Virus record (IMG/VR): IMGVR_UViG_3300025732_000026 | Location: 24,567 to 88,566 of that record | Reading direction: 5' to 3' (one strand) | DNA length: 64,000 nt | Source of the DNA: a virus | Shown: piece by piece, positions 1,963 to 59,567 of the stretch | How positions within the stretch are numbered: the first letter of the stretch is position 1 | How the letters are laid out: the number at the start of each line of letters is the position of its first letter | Notes under the pieces: generated by a model | The model's database searches: none | What the model saw: only the letters and a program-made list of their open reading frames with translations | Told to the model about the DNA's origin: nothing | Program-made: the position numbers and the translations under genes

Positions 1963-2594
1963 TAGGATTAGTTGGATTCGCTGGTTCTGGTAAAAATACT
2001 GTTGCCAATATTCTAAAAGAAGAGTATAATTTCCAACAATCATCATTTGCAACAAAACTCAAAGACATTGTTGCAATTTTATTTAATTGGCCAAGAGATT
2101 TGCTCGAAGGGATTACTGAAGAATCACGAATTTTTAGAGAAACGAAAGATGAGTATTGGAGTAATATTCTTGAAAGAGATGTTACTCCGAGATTTGTATT
2201 ACAATATATCGGCACAAATATATTTAGAGTACATTTTCACTCAGATTTTTGGATTCATTCATTGTTCTCGGAATTGGATTTAACTAAAAATAATGTAATA
2301 TCCGATGTTAGATTTAGAAATGAGATATTAGCAATAAAAGATTATGGTGGTATTATTCTTAGAGTGAAACGCGGCGATGATCCAATTTGGTTTAATAAAT
2401 TATATTCTGCGCCATTAGTGGAAGGTATTCGTGAAGAAATCATGAAGAAATATAATTCACATCAAAGCGAATATGATTGGATATTGCCATGCTATACTGA
2501 AACAATTCATAATGATCGTGGAATAGATGATCTGAGATTATATGTAGAAACATGTATGAATAGAATTGGATTAATTGAAGGAGTTAAATTATGA
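1956..2594 (+). CDS. Deoxynucleoside monophosphate kinase (T4 gp1-like)
   Basis: A 212-residue P-loop kinase. Walker A motif GFAGSGKNT is at residues 7-15, followed by a KL-rich helix and the DVRFRNE segment (around residue 110) typical of T4 gene 1 dNMP kinases. In T4 this enzyme phosphorylates dTMP, dGMP and hydroxymethyl-dCMP to diphosphates for the replisome. Whether this copy handles a modified base is unknown, and no dCMP hydroxymethylase is seen in the window. It overlaps both neighbours and lies in one operon with the clamp genes. Confidence 0.88.
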   Translation: MLIGLVGFAGSGKNTVANILKEEYNFQQSSFATKLKDIVAILFNWPRDLLEGITEESRIFRETKDEYWSNILERDVTPRFVLQYIGTNIFRVHFHSDFWIHSLFSELDLTKNNVISDVRFRNEILAIKDYGGIILRVKRGDDPIWFNKLYSAPLVEGIREEIMKKYNSHQSEYDWILPCYTETIHNDRGIDDLRLYVETCMNRIGLIEGVKL

Positions 2595-3601
2595 GTCAAG
2601 AAAAAGCTTTAGTTTTAAGAACGTGTAAAGCAGACGGAACAAGTTATGGTGACTTTCAGTGGCCAACGGAGATTGGCTCGATTGTCAAATGTCCAGATTG
2701 GAAACCGACGAAAGAATGTGGAAACGGACTTCATGGATTGCTGGATGGTCTTGGTGATCTTTTTCTATTGTCTAGCTCTATTGATGCCATTTGGCAGGTA
2801 GTTGAAGTTGATCGGTCGCAATGTATTGAACTAGGCGGAAAAGTCAAATTTCCTGAGTGTAAATTGGTGTATTCTGGGGATATGCTTGGTGCATTGATGC
2901 TGTTTGTTGACTATAACGTACAGCAATTGAAATCTGATGATGATTGTGCTGGATTAGTATCAACTGAAGATTATAGTCATTTAGCAGCATCTGGATATAA
3001 TAGTCGATTAGCGGCATCTGGATATTATAGCCAATTAGCTGCATCTGGAACAAACAGCCAATTAGCTGCATCTGGAAATAATAGTCAATTAGCTGCATCT
3101 GGAACAAACAGCCAATTAGCTGCATCTGGAAATAATAGCCAATTAGCTGCATCTGGAAATAATAGCCAATTAGCTGCATCGGGGGATTTTAGTAGAATAG
3201 CGGCATCTGGATATTATAGCCAATTAGCTGCATCTGGAACAAACAGCCAATTAGCTGCATCTGGAACAAACAGCCAATTAGCTGCATCTGGAAATAATAG
3301 CCAATTAGCTGCATCTGGAAATAATAGTCAATTAGCCGCATCGGGGGATTTTAGTAGAGTAGTGACATCTGGATATTATTGTCGATTATCTGCATCTGGA
3401 AAAGGATCAATTGTAATGTGTGCAGGAGACGCAAATACAGTTTCAGCAGGGGAAAATGGTACAATTGTGTTATCTAAGTGGAATAATATTGCGAAAAGAC
3501 ATGAAGTACGAGTAGGATATATTGGAGAGAATGGTCTAAAACCTAATGTTGCATATGAATTAGATCAAAATTTTGAATTTGTAGAATTTGTTGGAGTTTA
3601 A
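2591..3601 (+). CDS. DUF7666-like protein with a nonapeptide repeat domain
   Basis: A 336-residue protein in three parts. Residues 1-125 form a conserved phage/bacterial domain (motifs GDFQWP, CGNGLHG, LGGKVKFP) that I recognise as the DUF7666 type. Residues 127-279 are about 17 tandem copies of a nine-residue unit, consensus NNSQLAASG, that should stack as a solenoid. A C-terminal domain of about 57 residues follows. The start overlaps the kinase stop by 4 bases and the clamp gene follows 18 bases later, so it sits inside the replication operon. Function is unknown; the repeats might serve as a spacer or binding solenoid. Confidence 0.75.
   Translation: MSQEKALVLRTCKADGTSYGDFQWPTEIGSIVKCPDWKPTKECGNGLHGLLDGLGDLFLLSSSIDAIWQVVEVDRSQCIELGGKVKFPECKLVYSGDMLGALMLFVDYNVQQLKSDDDCAGLVSTEDYSHLAASGYNSRLAASGYYSQLAASGTNSQLAASGNNSQLAASGTNSQLAASGNNSQLAASGNNSQLAASGDFSRIAASGYYSQLAASGTNSQLAASGTNSQLAASGNNSQLAASGNNSQLAASGDFSRVVTSGYYCRLSASGKGSIVMCAGDANTVSAGENGTIVLSKWNNIAKRHEVRVGYIGENGLKPNVAYELDQNFEFVEFVGV
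2969..3427 (+). repeat. 27-bp in-frame tandem repeat (about 17 units)
   Basis: Seventeen consecutive 27-bp units encode xxSQLAASG. Units 3-9 and 10-15 look like two copies of a higher-order block ending in a DFSR unit, which points to expansion by unequal recombination. The first and last units are the most diverged. Confidence 0.9.
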
Positions 3602-7985: not shown

Positions 7986-10097
7986 GTGTACTATACAAAT
8001 GTTGCGGTTCTTGGGAATAATATCTGTCTTAGAGGTATAAAGAATGGTAAAAGATTTAACTCTAAGATTCAATATAAACCTAGTTTATATGTCAGATCAG
8101 AAATCGATTCGATATATAAAACTATTCATAGTGAAAATTTAGATAAAATTGAATTTGATAATATTAAATCTACCAGAGAATTTATTAACTCGTATAAAGA
8201 TGTTGAGAATTTTTCAATATATGGAAATCAATCATTTGAGTATGCTTTTATTGCAGATAATTTTAAAAATGAAATTGAATGGAATATAGATGACATATCA
8301 ATTGCAATTGTTGATATTGAAACGTATAGTGCCAATGGATTTCCAGATCCCGAGAAAGCTGAACATCCGATAACAGCTATTACCATACGGTATTTGAAAC
8401 AATATTCAATATCATTCGCATGTGGTGAATATACACCTAAATTCACAAATTCAAAATATATAAATTGTTTAGATGAATATGATTTGTGTGTCAAATTTGT
8501 GAATTATTGGAATAAAAATTGTCCAGATATAATGACAGGTTGGAATATTCAAGGATTTGATATTGCATATTTATTCAATCGAATATCTAAAATATGTGGA
8601 GAAACAGAAGTTCAAAAATTATCTCCTTGGGGTGTTATCAATAAATCTCAAAAATTTTCAAAAACGACCGGTAAAGCATATAGTATATATAAAATATATG
8701 GAATAGCAGTATTAGATTATCTTGATTTATATAAACAATTTTCACCAGTTAAACAAGAATCTTATAAATTGGATGTAATTTGTAATTATGAGTTGGGTAC
8801 TGGTAAATTAAATTATGATGAATATAGTTCCTTGCACCAATTATATGTTCAAAATTTTGAGAAATTTATTGATTATAATATTATTGATTGTGAGTTGATA
8901 GAACACCTAGAAGATAAGCTAAAGCTAATAGAACTTGCTGCGACATTGGCATATGATACTAAATCTCAGTTCGAAGATGTGTTCACACAAACTAGAATGT
9001 GGGATGCAATTATATATAATCATCTACTAGCCAATAATGTGATAATTCCTGCCAAGGAAATTTCAACAAAGGACGTTAAATTTGAGGGGGCATATGTTAA
9101 AGACCCCGTAGTTGGAAAATATAAAAATGTTGTTTCGTTTGATCTTGAGAGTTTATATCCTAGTTTGATTCAGCAATATAATTTGAGTCCCGATACAATT
9201 ATCGAACCGGAAAATTATACACCAGAGATACGAGAAATCGTATCGCGGAATATAACAGTTGATAAATTATTGAATCAGGAAATCGATTTTTCTAAATTAC
9301 AAAATGTCGTAATGGCAGCTAATGGTCATTTTTTTAGAATTGGTAAACAAGGATTTTTACCAGAAATATTGGCAAAAATGGGTGCTGATCGAAAAAAATA
9401 TAAGAGATTGATGCTCGATACCAAGAAAGAATTAGAAAAACACAAAATCAATAATACATTAACTGATGATATTTTAAATGAATTAGAAAGAAAAATTGCC
9501 AGATATAATAATCTTCAATTGGCAAAAAAGGTTCAATCCAATTCGGGTTTTGGCACGCTAGGCAGCGCGTATTTTAGATTTTTTGATACCAGAATCGCAG
9601 AAGCGATAACGTTATCAGGACAATTGGCTGTTAGGTGGGTTGAACAAGAAGTAGATAAACTATTGAATCATTTATTAAAAACGGAAAACGAGAATTATTG
9701 TTTGTATTCTGATACTGATAGTTGTTTTTTGCTTTTAAATCAAGTAGTTAGTAGAGCAAGTATAGATCATTCAGTAGTTGAGAATAGAATAAATTTTCTG
9801 GATAAATTATGTGATACTATTATTCAACCACATATTCAAAAAGCATATGATAAATTGTTTCGATATATTGGTGGATATGAGAATAAAATGTATATGAAAC
9901 GTGAGAAAATATGTTCAGATGTTATTTTTACCGGAAAAAAACATTATATTCTGAGTGTATATGATAATGAGGGTGTTCGATATTCTGAACCTCAGTTGGC
10001 AATAGTTGGATTGGAAATGATTAAAACTTCTACTCCAACTATTATTCGAGATAAATTAAAGAACTTGTTAAAATTTTATTATATGGTACAGAAGTAG
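7986..10097 (+). CDS. 43: DNA polymerase gp43, N-terminal and catalytic part (frame broken)
   Basis: A 703-residue family B polymerase. The N-terminal domain starts YYTNVAVLGNNIC from a GTG at 7986, directly after the previous stop. The exonuclease domain has Exo I VDIETYS, Exo II GWNIQGFDIAYL and later IDYNIIDC. Polymerase motif A is FDLESLYPSLI, motif B KKVQSNSGFGTLG, motif C YSDTDS. The frame ends at 10097 after DKLKNLLKF, while the missing thumb and clamp-binding tail continue in the -1 frame, open from 10055 to 10531. Natural shift, split gene or base-call error are all possible. Confidence 0.93.
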   Translation: MYYTNVAVLGNNICLRGIKNGKRFNSKIQYKPSLYVRSEIDSIYKTIHSENLDKIEFDNIKSTREFINSYKDVENFSIYGNQSFEYAFIADNFKNEIEWNIDDISIAIVDIETYSANGFPDPEKAEHPITAITIRYLKQYSISFACGEYTPKFTNSKYINCLDEYDLCVKFVNYWNKNCPDIMTGWNIQGFDIAYLFNRISKICGETEVQKLSPWGVINKSQKFSKTTGKAYSIYKIYGIAVLDYLDLYKQFSPVKQESYKLDVICNYELGTGKLNYDEYSSLHQLYVQNFEKFIDYNIIDCELIEHLEDKLKLIELAATLAYDTKSQFEDVFTQTRMWDAIIYNHLLANNVIIPAKEISTKDVKFEGAYVKDPVVGKYKNVVSFDLESLYPSLIQQYNLSPDTIIEPENYTPEIREIVSRNITVDKLLNQEIDFSKLQNVVMAANGHFFRIGKQGFLPEILAKMGADRKKYKRLMLDTKKELEKHKINNTLTDDILNELERKIARYNNLQLAKKVQSNSGFGTLGSAYFRFFDTRIAEAITLSGQLAVRWVEQEVDKLLNHLLKTENENYCLYSDTDSCFLLLNQVVSRASIDHSVVENRINFLDKLCDTIIQPHIQKAYDKLFRYIGGYENKMYMKREKICSDVIFTGKKHYILSVYDNEGVRYSEPQLAIVGLEMIKTSTPTIIRDKLKNLLKFYYMVQK

Positions 10098-10141
10098 AAT
10101 TACAAGAAGATATTTTACATTTTGAGAAAAAATTTATAGAA

Positions 10142-10531
10142 ATGACACCGGAAGATATCGCATTTCCTAAAGGAGTGAATGGAATTAAGGAATATACTGA
10201 TAGCATTTCGATCTATAGAAAAGGTACGCCCATTCATGTAAGAGGGAGTTTAATCTTCAATCATCAATTACAAAAATATTCAATTGACAACAAATATCCG
10301 AAAATACAAGATGGCACAAAAATAAAATATATCTATCTAAAAGAGCCAAATGTATTCCATGAAAATGTTATAGCATTTGTTGATAAATTGCCGGATGAAT
10401 TTATGTTACTAGAATATATTGATTATAATTTAATGTTTGATAAAGTATTTCTAGCTCCAATTAAAAATGTAACTGAACATATTGGATGGTCGGTTAGAAA
10501 ACAAAATAGTTTAGTTGGGTTCTTTGGTTGA
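10142..10531 (+). CDS. 43: DNA polymerase gp43, C-terminal part in the -1 frame
   Basis: A 129-residue C-terminal thumb segment of gp43, ending SLVGFFG, equivalent to the SLDFLFG clamp-binding tail of T4 gp43. The frame is open from 10055, and codons 10070-10141 also read as polymerase (KILLYGTEVELQ and onward), so translation probably enters by a -1 shift near 10068-10074 rather than at the weakly preceded ATG 10142. Joined, the product would be about 840 residues. Confidence 0.85.
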   Translation: MTPEDIAFPKGVNGIKEYTDSISIYRKGTPIHVRGSLIFNHQLQKYSIDNKYPKIQDGTKIKYIYLKEPNVFHENVIAFVDKLPDEFMLLEYIDYNLMFDKVFLAPIKNVTEHIGWSVRKQNSLVGFFG

Positions 10532-11641: not shown

Positions 11642-12985
11642 ATGAGTGATATTGAGAGAAAAATTCTTGAGAATTTATTACATAATGAACTATATGCTAG
11701 AAAAATTATACCTTTTATAGAGTTAGATTATTTTGTTGATTCAATTGATAGAACATTAGCACAAGAAATAGTACAATTTTTTGCTAAATATAATAAGCTA
11801 CCTACGAAAGATATTATTAGCATAGAACTTTCCAATCGAAAGAATTTATCGGATGAACTATTAACTAAATGTAATAAATTATTAAAGTCTTTGGAAGTAG
11901 ATGATTCCAATATTGATTGGTTATTGAAACATACCGAGAAATATTTTAAAGATCGCGCAGTCTATAATGCCATTCTAAAATCACTAACTATTATTAATAA
12001 TGAGGATAAAGTTTTAACGCCAGAGGCGATACCGAAGATACTTCAGGATGCATTGGGAGTATCTTTTGATAAAAATGTCGGACATGATTATTTTATTGAT
12101 GCCGAAGCAAGATATGATTTTTATAACCGTCGCGAAGAAAAAATACCATTTGATATTAATTTATTGAATAAAATTACAGATGGTGGCATGAGCAAAAAGA
12201 GTCTTACTATATTTCTTGCAATGACTGGATTAGGTAAAACTTTAGTGATGTGTCACATGGCGGCATCTGCTATATCACAGGGCAAAAATGTTTTATATAT
12301 TACTTTGGAAATGGCAGAAGAACGAATAGCGCAGAGAATTGATGCAAATTTACTCAATATTGATATTAAAGATTTGGTGGCATTATCCAAGGAATCGTTT
12401 AATAAGAGAATTGATAAATTGCGTGATCGATCCAATGGTAAATTAGTGATAAAGGAATATCCAACATCTAGTGCCCATGCTGGACATTTTAGGGTACTCT
12501 TAGAGGAGTTGAAAACTAAAAAGAATTTTCAACCAGATTTAATAGTAGTTGATTATTTAGGTATTTGTTCTAGTAGTCGAATTAAAATGAGTTCTGGTGC
12601 TAATTCTTATTTAATAGTTAAATCAATAGCAGAAGAATTGCGTGGATTAGCAATGGAATATAATGTTCCTGTCATCTCCGGTGCCCAAACTAATAAATGT
12701 TTGGTATTGAATACGTTAGTTGAGCATATGACTAAAGGAAAAATTCCGATCAAAGATTTGGTGATAGGTGATAAAATACTTGGTACGAATGGATTTGTTG
12801 ATGTCAATCATATTTTTCCAATTGAAGAAAATGAAGTATATGAAATAGTATTAAAATCTGGGAAAAAAATAAAGTGTTCCAAAAAACACATTTTTCCAAC
12901 AATTGATGGTATGAAATCGATAGACAATTTATTGCAGATTGGAGATTATTTATTTGTAAATAATGTTATTTCCCCAACACAGTAA
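11642..12985 (+). CDS. 41: Replicative DNA helicase gp41, N-extein fused to the N-half of a split intein
   Basis: A 447-residue product. Residues 1-352 are the gp41/DnaB helicase: N-terminal helical domain, Walker A AMTGLGKT at 193-200, LEMAEERIAQR, Walker B DLIVVDYLG near 300, then VISGAQTNK. At Cys353 (codon 12698) the sequence changes to intein: CLVLNTLVEH, a Hint-type fold with EIVLKSGKKIKCS and the block-B-like KKHIFPT, and the frame then ends. The other half of intein and helicase is at 14338. Protein trans-splicing is expected to join residues 1-352 to the 107-residue C-extein. Alone this product lacks the C-terminal part of the RecA core. Confidence 0.93.
   Translation: MSDIERKILENLLHNELYARKIIPFIELDYFVDSIDRTLAQEIVQFFAKYNKLPTKDIISIELSNRKNLSDELLTKCNKLLKSLEVDDSNIDWLLKHTEKYFKDRAVYNAILKSLTIINNEDKVLTPEAIPKILQDALGVSFDKNVGHDYFIDAEARYDFYNRREEKIPFDINLLNKITDGGMSKKSLTIFLAMTGLGKTLVMCHMAASAISQGKNVLYITLEMAEERIAQRIDANLLNIDIKDLVALSKESFNKRIDKLRDRSNGKLVIKEYPTSSAHAGHFRVLLEELKTKKNFQPDLIVVDYLGICSSSRIKMSSGANSYLIVKSIAEELRGLAMEYNVPVISGAQTNKCLVLNTLVEHMTKGKIPIKDLVIGDKILGTNGFVDVNHIFPIEENEVYEIVLKSGKKIKCSKKHIFPTIDGMKSIDNLLQIGDYLFVNNVISPTQ
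12698..12985 (+). other. Split intein, N-terminal fragment (95 residues)
   Basis: Begins with the nucleophile Cys (codon 12698-12700) directly after AQTNK of the helicase. It contains EIVLKSGKKIKC and the conserved His in KKHIFPT, and ends without an endonuclease domain. The size and motifs match the N-halves of the gp41-type split inteins known from environmental phage DNA. Confidence 0.92.
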
Positions 12986-12997
12986 AATGTTTGGAAT

Positions 12998-13033
12998 AAT
13001 AAATAACTGTATACCACTAAAAAGGATACAGTT
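12998..13033 (+). promoter_or_regulatory. Late-promoter-like box and hairpin masking the endonuclease start
   Basis: AATAAATA at 12998-13005 matches the T4 late box at 7 of 8 positions. An inverted repeat AACTGTAT (13005-13012) / ATACAGTT (13026-13033) puts the AAAGGA ribosome site partly in the loop and ends directly at the ATG 13034. T4 intron endonuclease genes such as I-TevI are kept silent early by such hairpins and expressed from a late promoter inside them. Confidence 0.5.
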
Positions 13034-14359
13034 ATGGCAAGTTTCGATTATTTTTTAAAGACGATAAAGAAGAATGGTGTTGAGAATATTTCAGATGATG
13101 TGTTGAAGGAATTGCAGCGCATATTTGACGAATTTGGAGCGGTTCCTACGAAAATCATATCTAAACAGATTTTATTAGGGATACCTGATATATATAAAAG
13201 ATTCGTAGAGTGTAGAAATAAATTAAAAAGTAAAGATTCTACCTCATATATTGCATGTATAATGAGATATGGTGAACATCATGGTGAAATAATATATCGT
13301 CAAAGATGTAAAGATTCAGCAATAACACTTGAGAATTTACAAAATAAGTATGGAATACATCAGGGGGAGAAAAAATGGAATGATATGTTGGCAAAAAAAT
13401 CATTTAGCTTGGCTGGATTTATTTTAAGGCATGGCGAAATAGATGGGCCAATAAAATACAAGGACTTTTGGGATAATACTAATTTTTCAACATCTAAAGA
13501 TGCTTTTATTCGTAGACATGGTGAAATAGATGGAATAGAAAGGTATAAGAAGTTTGTTGCAAAACAAGGATTCAACAATACATTATTAGCATATCATGAA
13601 AAATATGGTGTTGATTTAGGAAATATTCTATACAATGAGCGACTTGCTAAGAAAAATGCAAATAGTAAAAAAGTTAAATATGTCACAAAATTGTTAGAAT
13701 CTGGTAAAACTATAAATGAAATTAATGTTTTATTGGATAAAAGATATAATAAAACTTCGCTTAATAGTTTCATCAAAAGATATGGACTGGATATAGGAAC
13801 TGCGAAATATACAGAATTTATTTCTAAACTAAAAAGTAATAATGTTCTATGTATCGAATATTATAGAAAAAGGGGCATTTCGGATACTACTTCGTTTGAA
13901 TTGATATCCGACATTCAAGGAAAGAGAAACTGTAAATCCAATTTCTCAAAAGAATCAATGAAATATTTGTTGCCAATAGTTTTAAAAATTGAAGAAGTCA
14001 CTGAAAATAATTGTTTCTATGGCGAAGATGAATTCTTTATTAGAACAAATAAAGAAGAATTTGATGTGTCTGGTAAAAGAATATTCTTTTACGATTTTGT
14101 TTTTCCTAAATTAAATTTAATATTCGAATATCATGGTGTAAGATTCCATGCGGATGTTGATTATAGTTCAACTCATAGTTTGAATTTAGCGGAATTCAAA
14201 CTCAATTTTGATTCGGATTTGTTTAAGAAATATGTGGCGGAAAATAGAGGTTTTGATGTTAAGATTATTAGAAGTTGGAACTTGAAAGAGGATATGAATG
14301 CTTTATATGATTATTTGCGCGATAGGGGAATAGTATTATGTCAATCACTTTTTGTTTAG
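13034..14359 (+). CDS. Free-standing homing endonuclease between split-intein halves (Vsr/EDxHD-like)
   Basis: A 441-residue protein. Residues about 70-300 hold at least six repeats built around RHGEIDG / KYGVDLG followed by xxY, probably DNA-recognition modules. The C-terminal 130 residues carry a PD-(D/E)xK/Vsr-like core: GEDEFFI, YDFVFPKLNLIFEYHG and later ENRGFDVKIIRSW. This matches the endonuclease family described with fractured genes (I-Bth0305I type). Its last 22 bases overlap the start of the second helicase fragment. It probably cuts intein-less gp41 alleles to spread the locus. Confidence 0.85.
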   Translation: MASFDYFLKTIKKNGVENISDDVLKELQRIFDEFGAVPTKIISKQILLGIPDIYKRFVECRNKLKSKDSTSYIACIMRYGEHHGEIIYRQRCKDSAITLENLQNKYGIHQGEKKWNDMLAKKSFSLAGFILRHGEIDGPIKYKDFWDNTNFSTSKDAFIRRHGEIDGIERYKKFVAKQGFNNTLLAYHEKYGVDLGNILYNERLAKKNANSKKVKYVTKLLESGKTINEINVLLDKRYNKTSLNSFIKRYGLDIGTAKYTEFISKLKSNNVLCIEYYRKRGISDTTSFELISDIQGKRNCKSNFSKESMKYLLPIVLKIEEVTENNCFYGEDEFFIRTNKEEFDVSGKRIFFYDFVFPKLNLIFEYHGVRFHADVDYSSTHSLNLAEFKLNFDSDLFKKYVAENRGFDVKIIRSWNLKEDMNALYDYLRDRGIVLCQSLFV

Positions 14360-14460
14360 ATGAAATCGTAAGTATTAGAAAAATTGGAACTGAGAAAACA
14401 GTTGATATATCAGTTTCGAATGATAATTTATTTTTTGCAAATGATATTTTAACTCATAAT
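14338..14460 (+). other. Split intein, C-terminal fragment (41 residues)
   Basis: Ends THN followed by Ser at 14461, with all expected C-terminal splice residues (His, Asn, +1 Ser). Resembles gp41-8-type intein C-halves as I remember them, notably LFFAN-ILTHN. Confidence 0.92.
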
Positions 14461-14784
14461 AGCGGATATGATAATTCAGATGTTGATTTGTCCAATATGT
14501 CGGAATCTTATGGACTTAATTCAACAGCAGATTTGATTTTAGGTTTGATTCGAACAGAAGAACTTGATAAATTAAATCAAATAATGGTTAAACAATTAAA
14601 GAATCGATATTCCGATCTATCAACTAATAAACGTTTCGTTGTAGGTGTTGATCGATCTAAGATGAGATTATATAACATAGAAGATGTCGGACAGGAAAGA
14701 ATCGCCGATTCGGGAGTAGAATTGAATGATGATAGAAATAAGAAAAGACGATTCAATAAAGATTTTTCTGGATTAAAATTGTAA
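14338..14784 (+). CDS. 41: C-half of split intein fused to the C-extein of helicase gp41
   Basis: A 148-residue product. Residues 1-41 are the intein C-half: EIVSIRKIGTEKTVDI, block F SVSNDNLFFANDILTHN with penultimate His40 and terminal Asn41. Residue 42 is Ser (+1 nucleophile), starting the C-extein SGYDNSDVDLSNMSESYG, the end of the gp41 RecA domain, to DFSGLKL. The spliced helicase would have 352+107=459 residues, close to T4 gp41 (475). The ATG at 14338 lies inside the endonuclease gene, suggesting coupled translation. Confidence 0.93.
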   Translation: MSITFCLDEIVSIRKIGTEKTVDISVSNDNLFFANDILTHNSGYDNSDVDLSNMSESYGLNSTADLILGLIRTEELDKLNQIMVKQLKNRYSDLSTNKRFVVGVDRSKMRLYNIEDVGQERIADSGVELNDDRNKKRRFNKDFSGLKL

Positions 14785-56099: not shown

Positions 56100-56453
56100 A
56101 TGCCGCTTAGTTTCATTGAAAAAAATAAATACAATTTTGTTATATTTAAAGATGATGATTATATTGGAACAATTGAAAATAGTATACATGGTGTTACAAT
56201 TGATTTAATTGATACAGAACATACCCTGGATGATATGACAAGAATTGTTAATAAAATGCGAATTATATCTGAAACATATTTTGTTGAATTGTTATCTGAG
56301 AAATTAATACAGTATAATTATACTGTATTTTATGATTATATATCTGAAAGTTTTAATATATTGTATGGAAAAGATTGGATCTTTGAAGCATTTTCAATCG
56401 AATCTTTGTTAAAATATATCAGAGAAGAATTGGTGGATTTAGAAAATTCTTGA
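56100..56453 (+). CDS. Hypothetical protein, paralogue of the 60671 gene
   Basis: A 117-residue protein. MTRIVNKMRIISETYFVELL and the YIREEL end align with MLMIANKMAYLAQTCWLEAL and YIINEL at 60671. ATG directly follows the ligase stop. The promoter at 56450 overlaps its stop codon. Confidence 0.62.
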   Translation: MPLSFIEKNKYNFVIFKDDDYIGTIENSIHGVTIDLIDTEHTLDDMTRIVNKMRIISETYFVELLSEKLIQYNYTVFYDYISESFNILYGKDWIFEAFSIESLLKYIREELVDLENS

Positions 56454-56478
56454 CAGTAAGAAATTTTTGTTATATAAT
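56450..56478 (+). promoter_or_regulatory. Sigma70-type promoter with spacer motif
   Basis: TTGACA at 56450-56455, spacer GTAAGAAATTTTTGTTA (17 bp), TATAAT at 56473-56478. Confidence 0.8.
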
Positions 56479-56521: not shown

Positions 56522-56992
56522 ATGGACTTATTTAATTATATGCAAGACGGAGCATGTCCGGCTGCAAGGGCGGTGTTAGCATATTTGCAAAGAGAATCAA
56601 CTAACATTGAGGATTCTTGGAATAAAGAATATCATTGTTATGATGCAAGATTTGAAATTGGCAGATGGGAAAATTGTCGGGAACAAGGATACATTGTATC
56701 ACTTAAAAATAAAGATCACTCTCAGCAATTAAATATTGCATTCTTTGAACATAGAAATTCGAACGACATCTGTTGTATTAAATGGCTGCAATATTCAATA
56801 AATTCTTTATCGATTGATACCATGGACACGAAGGGCGAAGTATATAATACTAAATGGGATGTATCCAAATCATTCAATTATGATGGAATAATTGAATGCG
56901 CCAATTGGATTGCAGGTGAATTTAGGCAATTTTGGAACACCACTAAAAAAGATTATGTTGTGGCTAATTCAATTCTAACAAACGAAGTCTAA
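56522..56992 (+). CDS. Hypothetical protein
   Basis: A 156-residue protein rich in Trp (7) and Cys (6), starting MDLFNYMQDGACPAARAVLA. ATG 56522 follows ATAGGAA. A fold with a CYDARFEIGRWENC-like beta-hairpin is likely; family not recognised. Has its own promoter. Confidence 0.62.
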   Translation: MDLFNYMQDGACPAARAVLAYLQRESTNIEDSWNKEYHCYDARFEIGRWENCREQGYIVSLKNKDHSQQLNIAFFEHRNSNDICCIKWLQYSINSLSIDTMDTKGEVYNTKWDVSKSFNYDGIIECANWIAGEFRQFWNTTKKDYVVANSILTNEV

Positions 56993-57058
56993 TGATTAAT
57001 TGCATCAGATCATTTTTCGAAATCAATTACTATTATAGAATAATAGTGGAGATTAATT

Positions 57059-57184
57059 ATGAGGGATAACATGCGACAAAATGGATTTACTTTGATAGAA
57101 TGGATAATGGTGGTTGCTACCATTTTGATAATACTTGCATTATTTATTCCAGCAATCATAAATAATGCAGACTTTTTTCAATAG
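57059..57184 (+). CDS. Minimal type IV prepilin-like peptide (41 residues)
   Basis: MRDNMRQNGFTLIEWIMVVA and on: a short basic leader ending in Gly9, then Phe10-Thr-Leu-Ile-Glu14, the prepilin-peptidase site with the conserved Glu at +5, then a 20-residue hydrophobic helix and a short polar tail. It lacks the whole globular pilin domain. GGAG lies 7 bases upstream of ATG 57059, after the hairpin CTATTAT-AGA-ATAATAG (57030-57046); a second ATG is at 57071. It might be processed by host PilD-type peptidase and enter or jam the pilus machinery. This is inference. Confidence 0.65.
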   Translation: MRDNMRQNGFTLIEWIMVVATILIILALFIPAIINNADFFQ

Positions 57185-57238: not shown

Positions 57239-57266
57239 TTGACATTAGGAAATAATTCTGTATAAT
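57239..57266 (+). promoter_or_regulatory. Sigma70-type promoter with spacer motif
   Basis: TTGACA at 57239-57244, spacer TTAGGAAATAATTCTG (16 bp), TATAAT at 57261-57266. Confidence 0.8.
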
Positions 57267-58978: not shown

Positions 58979-59185
58979 ATGAGAAATATTGTAGAATTAG
59001 TAGAAATTTTAAAAAATAAAGTAAATACTGGTTGCATACCGCAGCGAGTAATTGATTATGCCAAAAATTTCCCCGAAACAAAGGGGTATGAAACGTATGA
59101 CCGGGTTCTAATTTTATATGTTGCCGAAGGCGTTATTTTATATACATATGGTAGAGTGGATTACTATTTGAAGCCAACTGTGTGA
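58979..59185 (+). CDS. Small hypothetical protein, paralogue of the 63177 gene
   Basis: A 68-residue protein beginning MRNIVELVEILKNKVNTG and containing ILYVAEGVILYTYGRVDYYL, matched by MYVAEGVIIYSYGSIEYYL in the 63177 gene. ATG 58979 follows AAGGGG. Function unknown. Confidence 0.65.
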   Translation: MRNIVELVEILKNKVNTGCIPQRVIDYAKNFPETKGYETYDRVLILYVAEGVILYTYGRVDYYLKPTV

Positions 59186-59210
59186 AGATTAATTGATACG
59201 GAGATAAATC

Positions 59211-59567
59211 ATGATCGCGGTAAAAATATTTAAAGATTTAGAATTTATATTTTCAATTAAAACCACACCAGAACAACGTCAAGATTATATAAATGAAATT
59301 AAAGAAGCAATAAAATCATCCGATTCTATTGTCAAAATTGATAACTCAATATTTCGAATCATTAACGAAAAAAATATTAGAGAAATATATCAGAAAGAAA
59401 AAGAATTAGAATTAAAATTAAATTTAGATATACCATCGTGGGTTGAGATTGATTGGACAAAAACTGTCCAAAATTGTTTAAATGATGAAGGATATGAACG
59501 CCATTTTAACGGCGGCAAGTATACCTCATTGTGGTCAAATGGGTATTATATTTTTAGAATTAATTGA
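59211..59567 (+). CDS. Hypothetical protein
   Basis: A 118-residue protein, charged helices then DWTKTVQNCLNDEGYERHFNG and a Trp/Tyr-rich end. CGGAG lies 8 bases upstream. Family not recognised. Confidence 0.6.
   Translation: MIAVKIFKDLEFIFSIKTTPEQRQDYINEIKEAIKSSDSIVKIDNSIFRIINEKNIREIYQKEKELELKLNLDIPSWVEIDWTKTVQNCLNDEGYERHFNGGKYTSLWSNGYYIFRIN

Follow-up and report, generated by a model that had tools for sequence, protein, structure and literature searches.

The 64,000-nucleotide stretch of DNA analyzed here (hereafter, the window) is part of an 88,566-base record that represents a fragment of a T4-like myovirus with a G+C content of 30%. The gp23 encoded in this record shares approximately 60% identity with its counterparts in Prochlorococcus phage P-TIM40, Pelagibacter phage HTVC008M and Methylophilales phage Melnitz-3, and the presence of this T4-like protein bears out the phage origin assumed in an earlier note on this DNA. 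In the accessory region, after the gene for an RNA ligase (388 aa; RNA_ligase Pfam match) and amid small uncharacterized genes, of which those adjoining it have no significant Pfam match, lies a tightly packed 41-codon frame (57059-57184, plus strand) that translates as MRDNMRQNGFTLIEWIMVVATILIILALFIPAIINNADFFQ. The features of the locus are the following.

56450-56478, plus strand: consensus sigma70-type promoter of the upstream unit, TTGACA-17-TATAAT (perfect boxes; presumed active)
57029-57047, plus strand: hairpin ACTATTATAGAATAATAGT, immediately upstream of the ribosome site (8-bp perfect core; z = -1.95)
57044-57058, plus strand: leader element TAGTGGAGATTAATT, repeated letter for letter in front of the genes at 56522 and 58979 (promoter/leader units aligned)
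57048-57051, plus strand: Shine-Dalgarno sequence GGAG, 7 nt ahead of the ATG at 57059
57059-57184, plus strand: headless prepilin gene, 41 aa (translation; N_methyl and TIGR02532 matches above the cut-offs; AF2 model)
57071-57184, plus strand: putative alternative start, giving a 5-residue leader, MRQNG/FTLIE, that resembles those of other phage pilin peptides (GAGGG 5 nt upstream)
57239-57266, plus strand: next consensus promoter, TTGACA-16-TATAAT, 54 nt past the peptide stop, which bounds the unit (perfect boxes)

The frame and its translation, with Gly9 followed by Phe10-Thr-Leu-Ile-Glu14, are exactly as the earlier note had read them, and the claim that the phage encodes a headless prepilin is well supported. 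The peptide (MRDNMRQN-G/FTLIE-WIMVVATILIILALFIPAIINNADFFQ, where the slash marks the predicted cleavage site) consists of a pilin N-terminus and almost nothing beyond it: the leader MRDNMRQNG is followed by the mature part FTLIEWIMVVATILIILALFIPAIINNADFFQ, which terminates after mature residue 32. In mature numbering, with Phe10 as residue 1, the peptide contains a type III (prepilin) signal with Gly-1, Phe+1 and Glu+5, followed by a hydrophobic alpha1-N helix with a kink at Pro22; the Glu and the Pro occupy the same positions in ordinary type IV pilins. The Pfam N_methyl model (PF07963) matches residues 5-28 at 28.0 bits (E-value 1.5e-6), where the curated cut-off is 21.2 bits, and the NCBIfam model TIGR02532 (prepilin-type cleavage/methylation domain) yields 19.7 bits, against a cut-off of 16.3. 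The single-sequence AF2 model is a single broken helix (residues 2-28 and 30-40; pLDDT 87). The closest solved pilins by sequence include the geopilin entries 9egp, 7tgg and 2m7g; a chloride pumping rhodopsin that also appeared among the solved-structure matches was judged to reflect chance similarity of hydrophobic helices. Only ten residues follow Pro22, and there is no globular C-terminal head. Because the head is one of the defining features of a pilin, we do not class the peptide as one; we place it instead, as a headless pilin-like peptide, among the variants of the small pilin-like proteins of phages. The PHROG models of such families are matched in their N-terminal part and none over its whole length (families 3433, 10597, 11263 and 13280; the model positions covered are 2-30 of 72, 17-50 of 127, 1-23 of 67 and 3-24 of 59).

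The good ribosome sites reported earlier are indeed present, and there are two of them, GGAG ahead of the first ATG and GAGGG (57061-57065) located 5 nt ahead of the internal ATG at 57071. The upstream hairpin is also real, with a perfect 8-bp core that ends just 5' of the GGAG, but it is modest (z = -1.95), and the window contains many hairpins. The 15-base leader, TAGTGRAGATTAATT, occurs exactly in three places: in front of the peptide gene and of the genes at 56522 and 58979. The window contains five perfect TTGACA/TATAAT promoters, compared to 0.4 expected, those at 56450 and 57239 among them, and the promoter/leader units can be aligned with one another. The peptide gene lacks a good -35 box of its own; the promoter at 56450 may serve this gene as well, or the gene may be transcribed from a weak promoter. 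Repeated promoter-leader units (TTGACA/TATAAT, TAGTGAAGATTAATT, TTGATAGGG...ATG) precede small genes at window positions 56450, 57239 and 58912, and also at 59180-59213; the ribosome-site part of the unit has 5 matches, compared to 0.3 expected.

Several other features of the window deserve mention in their own right. A gp41-type helicase gene (11642-14784) is apparently interrupted by a split intein, with the N-terminal half and Int-N at 11642-12985, a free-standing endonuclease-like ORF at 13034-14359, and Int-C (ending in HN) with the C-extein at 14338-14784. At 7986-10531, a DNA polymerase frame stops early, at 10097, and is followed by a frame resembling the polymerase C-terminus (10142-10531), which points to a split gene or a frameshift. 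A 336-aa protein (2591-3601) contains tandem 9-residue repeats of the NNSQLAASG type.

The search for homologues in other phages with a conserved G/FTLIE motif, as proposed in the earlier note, had a mixed outcome: headless counterparts exist, but we found no close relatives spanning the peptide locus and no close sequence relative of the peptide itself, and the conservation is partly circular. Specifically, the searches used a GFTLIE-like motif, so that its invariance in the alignment is not independent evidence of selection. Comparison of the 41-aa peptide with phage sequences using tblastn gave no match even at an E-value of 10, probably due to low-complexity filtering. The degenerate pattern GFTLIEWIM had no match in IMG/VR, and the matches to GFTLIEW in the same database were unrelated frames, with no true relative; in bacterial genomes, the GFTLIEW(IM) pattern detected three stretches, namely, an ordinary pilin-like frame, a short frame from a Legionella MAG, and a third stretch in which no frame matched. 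Scans with the RNA ligase and RNR found no relatives; the RtcB scan did, yet an N_methyl match was present in 0 of the 32 records. Among 50 gp23-related IMG/VR records, five are longer than 140 kb, and one of the five contains a pilin-like gene, that is, the presence of such genes is sporadic. Record G013, with a gp23 80% identical to that of the phage studied here, encodes an 82-aa pilin-like protein, MKIKGFTLIEVMIVICILGVLAAITLPVMFG..., with a small Cys-bounded tail. Its gene lies between the DNA-ligase and RNA-ligase genes, and the window peptide gene just past the RNA ligase, so that the two regions correspond loosely. When this longer protein was used as the probe instead of the 41-aa peptide, 171 phage records were matched at a permissive limit, many pilin-like proteins included.

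Headless versions of 27-31 aa are encoded between nrdB and nrdD in the Aeromonas phages PX29, phiAS5, AsFcp_4 and Ah1, and are mostly unannotated; PX29p038 (31 aa as annotated) is labeled 'similar to N-terminal part of fimbrial protein (pilin)', and the phiAS5 peptide is MKGFTLIELIVVIAVLGIVAAILPKIF. Two unannotated genes of 27-28 aa at this locus map to about 1504-1587 of our phiAS5 segment (L110) and about 1207-1293 of the AsFcp_4 segment (L117). Two further headless forms, each of 44 aa, are gp119 of Delftia phage PhiW-14 and a frame, MDIHPVQKKKGFTLIELIIVVAILGILALGAIVAGVILFMFILS, located behind a perfect AGGAGG in a 152-kb virus contig (IMG/VR 3300005915_001138, L142). The window peptide belongs with these phage products of about 27-44 aa that comprise the signal and the pilin helix only. 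A comparison of synonymous and non-synonymous changes at the single syntenic Aeromonas locus demonstrates that the headless peptides there evolve under purifying selection. Between phiAS5 and the other Aeromonas phages, synonymous sites are near saturation, with dN of 0.19-0.27 and omega of 0.05-0.13; PX29 compared to AsFcp_4 or Ah1 gives dN/dS of about 0.5; and AsFcp_4 and Ah1 differ at two sites, both non-synonymous, so that this pair is uninformative on selection. Given the tiny size of the genes, these estimates, about 0.05-0.5 for the informative pairs, are rough.

The DNA of the Aeromonas peptide is 84% identical, over 60 nt, to a longer gene of KVP40-like Vibrio phages, and therefore the headless and tailed forms are linked. 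Pilin-like proteins recovered with the 82-aa probe include KVP40.0030 (66 aa, beside td), a 59-aa protein of PAK_P3, the 'PilE-like' protein of Acibel004, a protein of cyanophage S-CAM7, and a longer protein of cyanophage ACG-2014f that is annotated as 'pilin'. In PHROGs, most of the small phage pilin-like proteins are labeled 'unknown function', and phrog_3433 is labeled 'pilin' in the moron and host takeover category. Among the sampled viral contigs, we also observed a pilin-like family of about 65-95 aa with a Cys-bounded mini-head, roughly NGMTE-RC(I)(DE)GYKF(VI)...RQ(VI)(ML)DEFGKGV(RK)C; this family, or a looser form of it, is present in about 16 of the 119 contigs (L104, at 1327-1575 on the minus strand; L127, L135, L145, L171, L188, L190, L195, L219, L231, L239 and others), and no Pfam or PHROG model matches the mini-head by itself. 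In bacteria, no pilin frame shorter than 67 aa was found among the best 150 N_methyl matches listed from 56 gammaproteobacterial genomes; among these matches, bacterial pilins are not built headless. The earlier statement that pilus-inhibiting phage proteins of this design were not known calls for qualification, considering the headless pilins of 27-44 aa in other phages; no papers on their function, or on phage pilins in general, were found in the part of the literature that was searched.

Our best guess, which follows the idea of the earlier note and which we hold tentatively, at somewhat less than an even chance, is that the window gene is a true accessory gene of this T4-like phage and that its headless product is a processed decoy that poisons the assembly of type IV filaments. 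In light of established pilin biology, the peptide, with its intact type III signal, its Glu5 and the whole assembly helix, should be able to enter the membrane, be processed and reach the assembly platform, but it lacks the head that a filament subunit requires thereafter. A dominant-negative decoy for a type IV filament system is the most economical reading, and we infer the expression, processing, target and benefit of the peptide as follows. The peptide would be produced during infection and would enter the inner membrane by virtue of its type III signal; the host prepilin peptidase (PilD-type) would cut it after Gly9 and methylate the mature Phe1. The 32-residue helix with Glu5 would then compete with the true pilins or pseudopilins at the assembly platform (PilC/GspF-type) or, alternatively, the headless peptide would block filament growth for want of a head. 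Either saturation of the prepilin peptidase or jamming of type IV pili appears plausible. In the infected cell, type IV pili, the competence pilus or type II secretion might be shut down, and the most useful benefit would be the exclusion of competing pilus-dependent phages. The pilin signature including Glu5 and Pro22, the tight packing of the gene, its two ribosome sites and its shared leader, the headless versions in other phages, the selection in Aeromonas phages, the minimum of 67 aa among the bacterial matches listed and the 82-aa gene of G013 all speak for a decoy, and PfsE offers a functional precedent, as a phage peptide of this size that is able to abolish pili via PilC. Against this reading, a pure decoy could do without the small heads that many phage pilin-like proteins carry; a pilin-like gene is found in only one of the five relatives with contigs over 140 kb; the conservation of GFTLIE is partly circular; the aromatic cluster of PfsE is absent from the peptide; and T4-like phages in general are not pilus-dependent.

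Among the alternatives, the main one, which we consider unlikely rather than remote, is a small peptide of the inner membrane that serves a different purpose, such as lysis timing, membrane exclusion or anchoring of a partner, that would use the type III signal for insertion only, so that the pilus machine is not the target. Small phage membrane peptides are common, Aeromonas phage Aes508 has a 75-aa pilin-like gene two genes away from rI, and the diversity of the small tails on other phage pilin-like proteins suggests that the N-terminus could be a generic anchor. However, a generic anchor has no need for Gly-1, Phe1, Glu5 or Pro22, yet all four recur across phages of several genera, and in the forms of 27-31 aa there is no tail to carry out a function. 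It is less probable still that the peptide is a minor or altered subunit of a host pilus or pseudopilus, perhaps with a separately encoded head, such that the filament is changed and not blocked. Geobacter PilA-N provides a natural example of a short pilin, the geopilins are among the closest solved pilins by sequence as noted above, and ACG-2014f encodes its longer 'pilin'; nevertheless, no separate head-like partner was recognized among the neighboring small genes, and the mini-head motif C-x2-G-Y...G-x-C occurs neither in the window nor elsewhere in the record.

That the gene is what decay has left of a captured pilin gene, with no function, also seems improbable, even if the lack of a head and the sporadic distribution are what would be expected of such a remnant. 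Downstream of the stop, there is no trace of a head in the mere 54 nt that precede the next promoter (an IDGF-like reading in this region was rejected as a head remnant, being part of the repeated promoter-upstream sequence), the ribosome sites and the shared leader are intact, and the Aeromonas counterparts are under purifying selection, which for the window copy itself is not measurable. By far the least credible explanation is a chance frame with a pilin-like look: the gene is short and short frames abound in phage genomes, but in a six-frame search of the entire record this peptide is the sole N_methyl match (E-value 4.1e-7), the same search over 82 other virus records produced one match altogether, and both Glu5 and Pro22 are in register. 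Matches this scarce make chance very unlikely.

A broader proposal, which we regard as possible but doubtful, is that unrelated phages have repeatedly evolved or captured headless pilins as minimal dominant-negative prepilins that poison type IV filaments via the host prepilin peptidase and platform. If so, these peptides would represent a widespread, unrecognized class of phage host-takeover peptides. Phages also disable type IV pili by means of Aqs1, Tip and PfsE, proteins of unrelated design. The attack of a headless pilin would follow the route by which the subunit itself enters, such that, in principle, any type IV filament could be affected. The counterparts in Aeromonas phages and other cultured phages, several of which are unannotated, mean that the idea can be tested in laboratory strains.

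The peptides most similar in architecture are those of the PX29p038 type in T4-like Aeromonas phages, which also consist of a type III signal and pilin helix followed by a stop but differ in genomic location, in having Leu6 instead of Trp6, and in a leader of 2-4 residues. PhiW-14 gp119 and the L142 frame likewise are headless, are about 40 aa long and come from large phages, but these belong to other lineages and the genes have other neighbors; the PhiW-14 protein also has a short charged tail. The proteins of phrog_10597 (PAK_P3, 59 aa), phrog_13280 (KVP40.0030, 66 aa), phrog_11263 and phrog_3433 ('pilin', moron) resemble the window peptide over the N-terminal 25-35 residues, whereas their tails or small heads continue past this region. 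Domain 1 of the Geobacter geopilin (PilA-N; PDB 7tgg, 9egp, 2m7g) is naturally short and mostly N-terminal helix; in contrast to the window peptide, it is cellular, longer (a 61-residue mature chain in 2m7g) and a filament subunit. PfsE of the filamentous phage Pf4 is a 30-aa peptide that binds PilC, abolishes piliation and carries a YXWGW aromatic cluster, YAWGW (PMC8764522). Although PfsE is not pilin-like and its YAWGW cluster is absent from the window peptide, both are phage inner-membrane peptides of about 30 residues and, if the decoy hypothesis is right, both would target the same platform protein.
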